Origin: Methanolobus profundi
GTDB taxonomy: Archaea > Halobacteriota > Methanosarcinia > Methanosarcinales > Methanosarcinaceae
NCBI RefSeq assembly: GCF_900114835.1
Contig: NZ_FOUJ01000001.1
Coordinates: 496,001-560,000, forward strand
DNA length: 64,000 bases
Direction of reading: 5' to 3'
Positions 4,499 to 63,046 of this stretch are shown here, piece by piece. Under the pieces are notes generated by a model. The model was not told where the DNA came from. It searched no databases and saw only the letters and a program-made list of their open reading frames with translations. How positions within the stretch are numbered: position 1 is the stretch's first letter; every line of letters starts with the position of its first letter. The translations under genes were made by a program, and so were the position numbers.

Positions 4499-6403
<1,905 letters not shown>

Positions 6404-28042: not shown

Positions 28043-28226
28043 TGTCTATTTGTTTTTAAGTGCAGTGGTATCATTCATTGAAAATGGCACATATGCAGGA
28101 TATGAAGCTTTATCTCTGCTTTATACGTCTACAGATCAAATTATGAGCTTTTGATGTGATTTTAAAACTTTGAACAACTTGTATTCATAATTAAAGCTTT
28201 ATTATCACTTTTTAATTGTAAGTATC

Positions 28227-28353
28227 TTTATATTTGCAGTTTCGAATCTGGGAAGTGTGAAGATCACATGGACGATACCACCAACCAACGTTACCACCAC
28301 AAACCATCATCACCGTACCACCATACATGTCGTACACCAACATGTGATCTCAC
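28227..28353 (+). ncRNA. Candidate RNA A: terminal-stem RNA with C/A-rich loop
   Basis: TATA-like TTTATATT (28227-28234) is centred 26-27 nt before GTG-a-AGATCACATG (28257-28270). This arm pairs with CATGTGATCT-CAC (28341-28353): 10 perfect pairs, one bulge, three more. The 70-nt loop has almost no G and carries repeated ACCACC and GTACCACC. TTTTATT follows the 3' arm. The predicted RNA is about 97 nt, with its 5' end at the stem base. It may be a free small RNA or the leader of the DUF4405 gene 82 nt downstream. A 35-codon His-rich ORF (28268-28375) overlaps but lacks a clear ribosome site. Confidence 0.5.
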
Positions 28354-28434
28354 TTTTATTCATATCATAAACTGATCAATATCCGCAATTACAGGAAACA
28401 GAAAAGAAATAGCATAAAAAAAGGAGTTGGAAAA

Positions 28435-28752
28435 ATGAAGAAAAATACACTCAATTATATAGTGGACCTCCCACTATTGGCACAGTCTGTCATAGTAAGC
28501 GTTACAGGAGTTGTCCTGATGTATGGAAGCCATGGAACAAGTTTCCTTGGATTTGACAGCAGGGAGTTACTCCACATGCATGAACAGATAGGTATCCTGA
28601 TGGTTGCTTTCTCACTTATACATGTAGTATTGCACTGGAAGTGGATGGCATGCACAACAAAGAACTTCCTTACAGGTAAGAGCGTTTCATCTGCAACCAG
28701 TAAGAACGGATCATTTGTACAATGTGAAGTAGCAACTCCGGTTGAAGACTAA
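28435..28752 (+). CDS. Small DUF4405-like membrane protein
   Basis: 105 residues. Two hydrophobic helices (about 12-32 and 48-68) are separated by a loop. Histidines fall on helix 2 and its ends (LLHMHEQIG, LIHVVLHWKW), in the style of DUF4405 and cytochrome b561-like heme ligands. The last third is polar with two cysteines. An AAGGAG Shine-Dalgarno lies 9 nt before the ATG. A membrane electron-transfer role with heme is a guess from the histidine pattern. The leader contains candidate RNA A. A strong terminator follows. Confidence 0.7.
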   Translation: MKKNTLNYIVDLPLLAQSVIVSVTGVVLMYGSHGTSFLGFDSRELLHMHEQIGILMVAFSLIHVVLHWKWMACTTKNFLTGKSVSSATSKNGSFVQCEVATPVED

Positions 28753-43783: not shown

Positions 43784-44548
43784 TTATCTATTAACTGGCT
43801 TTACTTTCCCTTTCAAGGACTGAAGATGTTTCCTTGCAGCTTCAGCCTTTGCTTTCCTGACCTGGGTTGCTTTTCCTGTAGATACTATGGAATCATGTAT
43901 TTCCAGTCCAACAGTGAACATCTTGCAATGGCCCGGGCCGGTTTCTTCGATAATGGGATAATTGATGTTGTCTTCACCGTATATATCCTGTACTTTGCCG
44001 ACCGGATTTGAATGTGGTACTTTTTCCAGGGCGCTTTCGATATCAAAGTACTTGTAGACAAACTCTCTGGCTCTAGGTAAGCCCTGATCAAGATAGATAG
44101 CTCCAATGAGTGCTTCGATAACATCATCGAATATATCTTCAACACTATCCAGATAGCCGTAGATGATGTACTTTTCCAGCTCCAGTTTTTGTGCTACCGG
44201 AACCAGACCTTCATTCTCGACCAACACGATCTTAACAGTAGTTAGTGCAGCTTCTATTGACAGGTCGTTGGACCTTGCATATTCCTCGATCTCTTTGTGA
44301 TGGTAAAAAAAGTCACCAATAATAAGGTCTAATACAAGGTCTCCCAGATTTTCCAGCTTATTGTAATCAGCATTTTCAAGATGGTTCTTTTGAATGAAAG
44401 CTTTCATTTTTCGCTTATTGCCGCTATAAAATGAACCATGCGTCAAAGCTTCTGTCAAAATGCTTTTGTTCTTAAATTCAAAACCAATGATCTTCTGGAA
44501 TTCTTCTAGCTGATCTAGACTTACAGTTAGGTCTTCATTTACTTTCAT
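43784..44548 (-). CDS. rnc: Ribonuclease III
   Basis: Double-strand-specific endoribonuclease of 254 residues. The RNase III domain has ALTHGSFYSGN, the signature NKLENLGDLVLDLIIG (catalytic Glu and Asp) and DDVIEALIGAIYLDQGL (Asp and Glu), so all four catalytic acids are present. The C-terminal dsRNA-binding domain (about 180-250) ends QVRKAKAEAARKHLQSLKG. It is full-length and not decayed. RNase III is scattered in archaea and probably bacterial by descent (established view). A 19-bp hairpin lies about 400 nt upstream (44953-45005). Confidence 0.92.
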   Translation of the reverse strand: MKVNEDLTVSLDQLEEFQKIIGFEFKNKSILTEALTHGSFYSGNKRKMKAFIQKNHLENADYNKLENLGDLVLDLIIGDFFYHHKEIEEYARSNDLSIEAALTTVKIVLVENEGLVPVAQKLELEKYIIYGYLDSVEDIFDDVIEALIGAIYLDQGLPRAREFVYKYFDIESALEKVPHSNPVGKVQDIYGEDNINYPIIEETGPGHCKMFTVGLEIHDSIVSTGKATQVRKAKAEAARKHLQSLKGKVKPVNR

Positions 44549-44813
44549 CTCAGATCCTCATTATGTTCGTGTTCTTATATTTTCTTTAGCAAATACATAG
44601 GCGATCAGCACTGAAATTATCCACGAAACTCATATTCAATGTATTCTTAAAATAATTCCAATGATAGAACAAGGTATGAAAATGCCCTTATGTTTGTACT
44701 TTAACAGCCTCACTTTCATCAGTGAACTTGTTCAAATAAATATATCATCATAATGATGCTCATTATATATTCTACTGTACATATATTAATATAGTAGAAA
44801 AAAGTAGTAGTAA
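44549..44813. other. rnc upstream region
   Basis: AT-rich, no ORF. It should contain the nearest rnc promoter (minus strand). A 13-nt palindrome-like CATCAT-a-ATGATG (about 44746-44758) and CTACT/AGTAG arms (44772-44796) are visible, with multiple TATA-like tracts. Confidence 0.4.
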
Positions 44814-44848
44814 TTGTGGCACGAACTGCCAGGCAGTACATGTCACAA
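44814..44848 (-). terminator. Hairpin followed by U-tract on the minus strand
   Basis: TTGTG (44814-44818) pairs with CACAA (44844-44848), and inside lie ACTG/CAGT arms (44825-44837). On the minus strand the hairpin is followed by TTACTACTACTTTTTT, so it could end a minus-strand RNA that starts near 45050. Confidence 0.4.
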
Positions 44849-44859
44849 AAAAACGATTC

Positions 44860-44919
44860 GGTGGTACGATATGAGAATCATTCATATTTGGTGGTACAAT
44901 ATGGAACTCATCCGAACTC
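44860..44919. repeat. Imperfect 30-nt tandem repeat with GGTGGTAC core
   Basis: GGTGGTACGATATGAGAATCAT (44860-44881) recurs as GGTGGTACAATATGGAACTCAT (44890-44911). The first copy contains GGTGGTACG, the exact complement of CGTACCACC in candidate RNA A (28314-28322). The second contains TGGTACAAT, the exact complement of ATTGTACCA in candidate RNA B (62481-62489). There are only two copies, so this is not a CRISPR. Confidence 0.6.
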
Positions 44920-44952
44920 TCTCTGGTAGAAAAACGTAAGGAATTGGATTGC

Positions 44953-45005
44953 ATGGAAATGCTGCAAGATGTCTTCCCTCTCCATCTTGACATCAGCATT
45001 TCCAT
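44953..45005. repeat. 19-bp hairpin upstream of rnc
   Basis: ATGGAAATGCTG (44953-44964) pairs with CAGCATTTCCAT (44994-45005), and CAAGATG (44965-44971) pairs with CATCTTG (44983-44989), leaving a 4-nt bulge (acat) and an 11-nt pyrimidine loop on the plus strand. The two adjacent perfect stems give 19 pairs, far beyond chance. It could be a leader element of rnc (minus) or part of a small RNA on either strand. Confidence 0.65.
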
Positions 45006-45071
45006 TCTCCTGAGAAAAAAAGTATGAGTGGTAAGGGAGTGGGGGTAACTCTCTTTTATCATTCTATCTTT

Positions 45072-62412: not shown

Positions 62413-62530
62413 TTTATATAGTATGCAGATAAATAAGTAAATGGTAAAAGGGGAGCTAATATTACCACCACCATCTCATTATTGTACCATACCAACCAGT
62501 TTTTCATATTTTGAGAACACGGGGCTCCCC
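62413..62530 (+). ncRNA. Candidate RNA B: terminal-stem RNA with C/A-rich loop
   Basis: TTTATATA (62413-62420) is centred about 33 nt before GGGGAGC (62450-62456), which pairs with GCTCCCC (62524-62530), a GC-only-rich 7-bp stem that stands out in AT-rich DNA. The 67-nt loop begins TAATATTACCACCACCATCT and carries GTACCATACCAACC and CATACCAACCA. TCTCA (62474-62478) can pair with TGAGA (62511-62515). TACTTTTAACC follows. The predicted RNA is 81-88 nt. The downstream gene (62615) has its own TATA-like box, favouring a free RNA. Confidence 0.5.
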
Positions 62531-62614: not shown

Positions 62615-63046
62615 ATGGAAAAAAATCTTTCTTATGCTTTACTGATCATTACTGTTGGTATACTTATAGGTTTCAGCGGGAATATCTGGTCATGTGGACC
62701 TGTTCAGGTAGAAGGTCTACTGGTAGTGGAAGGGGTTTCATCTATGGGTCTTGCAGAGAATAACAGTTCTGTCACCATTTACACGTACGAGTTCACTCTC
62801 TATAACAGTGGGCAGGAAGATGTCTATGTAACATCAGTTGAGCCGATACTGGCCGATAGTCCCTATATTCTCACCTCACAGGATTCTGTGCTTCAGGATA
62901 TCAATGGGTATGTGGAAGCAGGTTCATCTATGAATGTAGGAGGTACTGTTGAGCTCTTTACAGAAGGTATGTCCAAGGAAGAGATCATGGACCTTGAACC
63001 CATAGTAAATGTGCGTGTATCTTCAACAGAAACTATGCCTATTTGA
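62615..63046 (+). CDS. Hypothetical secreted or membrane-anchored protein
   Basis: 143 residues. One N-terminal hydrophobic segment (SYALLIITVGILIGFSG) is a signal or anchor. The remainder is a beta-rich domain (YTYEFTLYNSGQEDVYVTSV, YVEAGSSMNVGGTVELF) resembling archaeal Ig-like or DUF11 modules outside the membrane. The family is not recognised. GGGGATCGATA before ATG is a weak ribosome site. Candidate RNA B ends 84 nt upstream. A GACCT/AGGTC hairpin with T-rich tail (63058-63090) probably ends its transcript. Confidence 0.68.
   Translation: MEKNLSYALLIITVGILIGFSGNIWSCGPVQVEGLLVVEGVSSMGLAENNSSVTIYTYEFTLYNSGQEDVYVTSVEPILADSPYILTSQDSVLQDINGYVEAGSSMNVGGTVELFTEGMSKEEIMDLEPIVNVRVSSTETMPI

Follow-up and report, generated by a model that had tools for sequence, protein, structure and literature searches.

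Small RNAs of archaea mostly have no known partners, and a few described systems can be set beside the locus analysed here. In Methanosarcina mazei, sRNA154, sRNA162 and sRNA41 are regulators that act through exposed loops or regions which base-pair (PMC5867862, PMC3510493). In Methanolobus psychrophilus R15, one report describes nine mutually conserved sRNAs that are induced by cold and preceded by a 'cold box' motif, as well as long mRNA leaders that are common and linked to mRNA stability (PMC5378194).

Our locus lies in a window of 64,000 nucleotides (the whole stretch of DNA that was analysed) from Methanolobus profundi. At positions 28257–28353 of its + strand a preliminary description had proposed a 97-nt small RNA, here called RNA A. 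Judged by comparison among genomes, RNA A is a real conserved structured RNA element of Methanolobus. Its likeness to the M. mazei RNAs lies in the exposed-loop pairing that we propose for it. It differs from them in that no Rfam family matches RNA A at gathering or relaxed thresholds (E up to 10), and in that its loop motif is absent from all 31 genomes of group g7, which we take to be Methanosarcina. RNA A has an upstream box (TAAAGCTTTA) different from the TCATCATAATGATG-type box of a second RNA family, X, which resembles the cold-box sRNAs. The features of the locus are the following.

28104–28113, + strand: distal copy of the upstream box (GAAGCTTTAT), aligning with AATAAAGCTTTATA in homologous promoters
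28192–28201, + strand: palindromic promoter box TAAAGCTTTA, probable regulator site, conserved in the alignment
28220–28234, + strand: BRE/TATA promoter AAGTATCTTTATATT, near-invariant, 39–40 nt from the stem in 20 copies
28250–28257, + strand: predicted transcription start region, placed by TATA spacing
28257–28270, + strand: 5' arm of the closing stem, 12 consensus pairs
28271–28340, + strand: G-poor, C/A-rich loop with repeated (G)UACCACC, three TACCACC copies
28314–28322, + strand: loop site CGUACCACC, perfectly complementary over 9 nt to GGUGGUACG of RNA X
28330–28339, + strand: second loop motif UCGUACACCA (in many homologues CAUAUCGUACACCA)
28341–28353, + strand: 3' arm of the closing stem, 12 consensus pairs
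28354–28434, + strand: A-rich, G-poor spacer without TATA, with Shine-Dalgarno AAGGAG at its end
28435–28752, + strand: small membrane protein gene with DUF4405 (PF14358, E 1.8e-9), downstream of RNA A

The closing stem joins AGATCACATG (28261–28270) to CATGTGATCT (28341–28350), with GTG/CAC added past one bulged A. The loop that this perfect stem keeps open has the composition C 40%, A 37%, T 14%, G 9% and contains several GUACCACC copies. TTTTATT follows directly 3' of the stem from 28354, and TTTATATT at 28227–28234 is centred ~26.5 nt before 28257. Stem, bulge, G-poor loop, TATA and TTTTATT are all present where the preliminary description had placed them. Its further claim, that a 10-bp match is unlikely by chance in 392 nt, has to be softened to mildly unusual, as dinucleotide shuffling of the 392-nt intergenic region around RNA A gave a perfect arm of this length or longer in 7 of 200 cases. 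Together with a fold z-score of −2.25, this makes the single-sequence structure weakly significant. Since the stem alone is mildly unusual, the reality of RNA A is settled by conservation and not by the structure of a single sequence.

Sequence comparison establishes the module, its stem and its promoter as conserved. DNA search found homologues of RNA A in 13 of the 27 Methanolobus genomes (G011 is counted here, with a copy split over two contigs, both parts of which were read). Two further diverged copies, in G023 and G006, stand at the same place before DUF4405 and were read directly and matched by the covariance model. In 15 Methanolobus genomes RNA A precedes the orthologous DUF4405 gene, and wherever a close DUF4405 orthologue is present RNA A is present as well (15/15). 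In six of these 15 genomes a further copy precedes a VTC-domain gene (PF09359, E 1.9e-52); in the window's own genome the second copy, with 76% identity over 161 nt including the promoter, is a paralogue ~70 kb away in front of the VTC-domain gene. The loop is G-poor in the homologous copies seen.

The consensus of 20 copies is a single 12-bp closing stem, with 99.1% of stem cells paired. Two-sided changes occur at 4 of its 12 pairs (A-U to G-C, G-C to A-U and U-A to C-G), a level that none of 500 shuffles reached, and slid versions of the stem gave 0 such pairs. Moreover, stem cells in the 20 copies include 11 G-U/U-G against 1 A-C on the + strand, and the + strand is the likely RNA because those 11 cells would read as A-C mismatches on the other strand. 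The arms do form a palindrome in the DNA, and most copies have an ATG in the 5' arm, features that would suit an operator or inverted repeat acting as DNA, or a short coding frame opened by this ATG. Either reading is highly improbable, as G-U is tolerated on one strand only (11 versus 1), indels are not multiples of three and the ATG is lost in G023 and G006; these indels, which break the frame, and the missing ATG rule out a conserved peptide. A minus-strand C/D-box RNA, with a TGATGA-like string, was also considered and rejected, as it showed no CTGA box and the G-U asymmetry favours the + strand.

Every aligned copy has AAGTAT(C/G)TTTATATT, or a close variant, 39–40 nt before the stem. In a pattern search, TAAAGCTTTA together with TTATATT at a fixed distance was found in 10 of 27 genomes, nearly always at RNA A loci, and this near confinement suggests a dedicated regulator at the TAAAGCTTTA box. 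The exact box is altered or absent in the diverged copies of G023, G006, G008 and G014. Stem covariation, including the paired substitutions that the preliminary description had named as a check, the G-U asymmetry and the conserved TATA together support the earlier view of a structured + strand RNA with an exposed C/A loop and its own promoter.

A free, stand-alone form of 97 nt had also been proposed. Spacers between stem and start codon are ~60–150 nt long among RNA A copies (one of them, at L043, being measured to an internal ATG only). No TATA-like string occurs in 18 of 20 spacers, and the remaining two have one at most 26 nt from the start codon. In the window, a weak T-run lies 3' of the stem, and the gene is co-directional and without its own TATA. 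In G001 (L098, G001:C1:823870) the VTC promoter keeps AAAGCTTTAT and AAGTATGCTTATATT while the RNA module is degenerate, so this promoter seems to serve the VTC gene. Because the spacers have no consistent TATA and the G001 promoter is retained before the VTC gene, RNA A is probably part of an mRNA 5' leader rather than just a free sRNA of 97 nt; the leader may also give a short form, by processing or termination. VTC-type spacers seem to hold a second hairpin, ATCGTCT/AGACGAT, as read by eye.

The absence of a consistent promoter from the spacer would also suit a leader acting in cis only, whose terminal stem would protect the 5' end of the mRNA or govern DUF4405 or VTC translation without any partner RNA, and the long leaders tied to mRNA stability in M. 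psychrophilus (PMC5378194) would agree with it. We consider a purely cis-acting leader rather unlikely, though, because the module and the gene part company. In G007 the DUF4405 gene has several stops and RNA A is intact, and in G001 RNA A is lost beside an intact VTC gene; hence, the RNA module is kept or lost independently of the gene. A second RNA family that conserves the exact complement of the shared loop motif, described below, also speaks against it. Pairing of the loop with the Shine-Dalgarno site of the downstream gene was rejected, as the matching loop bases are not conserved among copies.

Pairing of the loop with ribosome sites, the mechanism put forward in the preliminary description, was not borne out. 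AUCACC in the RNA A loop mimics the 3' end of 16S rRNA, and among 6-mers upstream of starts GGTGAT ranks second in frequency. Over the start regions of 703 predicted genes on one contig, duplex energies of the RNA A loop were no better than those of shuffled loops (top-10 mean −32.4 versus −28.0 to −34.1), and because shuffled loops score equally the mechanism is unsupported beyond composition. A free trans-acting sRNA whose loop masks ribosome-binding sites could draw on its AUCACC and ACCACC strings and on the commonness of GGTGAT, and related RNAs of types S and D and from g8 do appear stand-alone. It is nonetheless unlikely, in view of these energies, of the lack of a clear terminator after the stem in most copies, and of the co-directional gene that comes next in every copy.

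Sequence comparison establishes that GUACCACC in the RNA A loop is part of a motif, CAUAUCGUACCACCA (the C-motif), common to other stem-closed RNAs in related genera, and weak covariance-model matches include RNAs of RNA A architecture with other stem sequences. The 27 Methanolobus genomes contain 62 instances of the pattern ATATCGTAC(N)ACCA, versus 3 of the reversed pattern; elsewhere ATATCGTAC(N)ACCA occurs 17 times in 11 g3 genomes, 18 times in 8 g8 genomes and 6 times in 6 g14 genomes, with 0 in the 31 g7 genomes. Stems of at least 8 bp enclose 42 of 52 unique fetched motif sites, versus 14.8 expected with shuffled flanks. The main types are S (GAGCAAGGTC...GACCTTGCTC), D (GGCCGGGTT...ATCCGGCC) and A/B (RNA A). 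RNA A is placed among them by a CAUAUCGUACCACCA-like sequence in a stem-closed G-poor loop, its copies having AUAUCGUACACCA or UGUCGUACACCA, plus GUACCACCA. C-motif RNAs that differ in their stems gave no joint alignment from which a generic covariance model could be built. A de novo scan of 858 kb for inverted repeats with C-rich loops gave 20 matches versus 12 in a shuffle, and since this is not significant alone, its matches were used as evidence only if conserved. The window holds another RNA of this kind.

62450–62530, + strand: RNA C, conserved stem-closed RNA with UUACCACCACC

RNA C, with ACCACC loops of a related kind, is conserved in 16 of the 27 Methanolobus genomes. It has a GGGGAGC/GCTCCCC stem with an inner TCTCA/TGAGA pairing, and lies ~85 nt before an ORF at 62615 that has no Pfam match.

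Several other arrangements were seen during the survey. At ~822.6 kb of G000:C7 (L145 reverse strand, plus coordinates 4607–4756), two consecutive stem-closed C-rich hairpins follow a TATA-like promoter; the second stem has 15 pairs, and these hairpins were found in G000 only. L197 (G089:C1:986300-989900) holds four clustered S-type RNAs, each under a promoter of its own, and three of these lie 363 nt apart. On the reverse strand of L081 (1507–1887, G099), two tandem paralogous RNAs have stems differing by a compensatory C-G to U-A change (GACCAG/CTGGTC versus GATCAG/CTGATC). L204/L223 (G099:C3:~431.4 kb) carries GCAGCTTTCATATCGTACCACCA in tandem without a closing stem, resembling a multi-site decoy. 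In L078 (G138:C223) a 645-bp unit is present about nine times, possibly as an assembly artefact; each unit contains a C-rich RNA closed by a stem, GAAGATCACATT, similar to the RNA A stem.

Some motif matches without a stem proved to be the reverse complement of the C-motif inside another RNA, that of family X. The copy in the window has the following features.

44745–44794, + strand: RNA X promoter, TCATCATAATGATG box and TACATATATTAATATAG
44805–45050 (limits approximate), + strand: RNA X, window copy of the multi-copy structured RNA family
44859–44874, + strand: first GGUGGUACGAUAUG site of RNA X, complementary to the shared loop motif
44889–44904, + strand: second GGUGGUAC site of RNA X

Members of family X combine a TCATCATAATGATG-type box and a TATATATT-type promoter with an RNA of ~250 nt, and parts of the family match in 27 of 27 Methanolobus genomes, often at several places. 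The complementary motif (GGUGGUACGAUAUG), likewise established by sequence comparison, is the best-conserved segment of the X RNAs (GGTGGTACGATATG); in a 10-copy alignment that is otherwise 53% identical, the best-conserved stretch reads CCATNCGGTGGTACGATATGG. In the consensus fold this segment sits in a small CCAU/AUGG hairpin, and some copies have a shortened or altered complement segment. G098, of another genus, has GGTGGTACGATAT downstream of a TATA-like string. RNA X (44745–45050, + strand) adjoins a divergent gene (43784–44548, − strand) for an RNase III-type protein with a dsRNA-binding domain (PF14622/PF00636/PF00035), which, to our knowledge, is unusual in archaea; a protein of this type beside RNA X could act on RNA duplexes.

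One motif in several unrelated stems, across genera, might also be explained by a protein common to all C-motif RNAs, the complement in X being of other origin. We hold a protein-binding hub to be improbable, as it leaves the 14-nt complement unexplained as the most conserved part of X.

Pairing between RNA A and X was evaluated by several measures. In the window, A and X share a perfect 9-nt complement, CGUACCACC/GGUGGUACG; the strongest complementarity, 14 nt, is between X and S-type RNAs, not RNA A. Against dinucleotide shuffles, the energy of A loops with the X motif gave p ≤0.07 in 18 of 20 copies (0.045 for the window copy), the weakest being G022_B (p 0.11) and G006 (p 0.49); because RNA A copies are related, these p values are not independent and are supportive only. 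As raw values without shuffled control, the co-fold gain was 19.4 kcal/mol for window A with X versus 9.7 for S with X. Predicted accessibility is mostly unpaired for the A loop sites and 0.3–0.63 unpaired for the X motif sites. A C/A-rich loop also matches G-rich sites easily, and against a pairing model stands, too, that DUF4405 and VTC have no obvious common pathway.

With some hesitation, and at a little less than even confidence, we favour a leader RNA module whose C-motif loop pairs with X, as docking site and/or decoy. According to this model, RNA A's own TATA promoter would give a DUF4405 mRNA leader with the RNA A module at its 5' end, and the perfect closing stem would display a loop with several GUACCACC copies. 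Base-pairing would join this loop (CAUAUCGUACCACCA) to the GGUGGUACG segments that the multi-copy 'G-motif' RNAs, X, carry. As a docking site, RNA A would let X control the downstream mRNA; as a decoy, it would titrate X, alternatively or additionally. Transcript extent, pairing of A with X and the direction of regulation are what we infer here.

Bacterial antisense or kissing-loop pairs and sRNA sponges are likewise made of two RNAs with short complementary segments, one of them multi-copy. Unlike these, the present case has several unrelated stem-closed RNAs and mRNA leaders with one motif, and its pairing is predicted. We know of no such set with one common motif in archaea. Family X occurs at three places in genome G026, near 594292, 212728 and 2065370; we take this genome to be M. 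psychrophilus R15, and RNA A was not found in it. The nine mutually conserved cold-box sRNAs of this species of the same genus, with their common motif upstream of the promoters (PMC5378194), resemble X, which is multi-copy and has a conserved box, and family X may be the cold-box sRNA family.

More widely, we give close to an even chance, on the lower side, to a two-sided network in the methylotrophic Methanosarcinaceae other than Methanosarcina, in which CAUAUCGUACCACCA RNAs and leaders face a multi-copy, possibly cold-induced family of exact complements, and which would amount to wide RNA–RNA control. The data point to an RNA-to-RNA control network undescribed in archaea. A leader RNA, a loop motif that recurs in several genera and a multi-copy family bearing its exact complement make a concrete and testable pair of candidate partners, and this pair offers a possible meaning for the abundant cold-induced sRNAs of Methanolobus.
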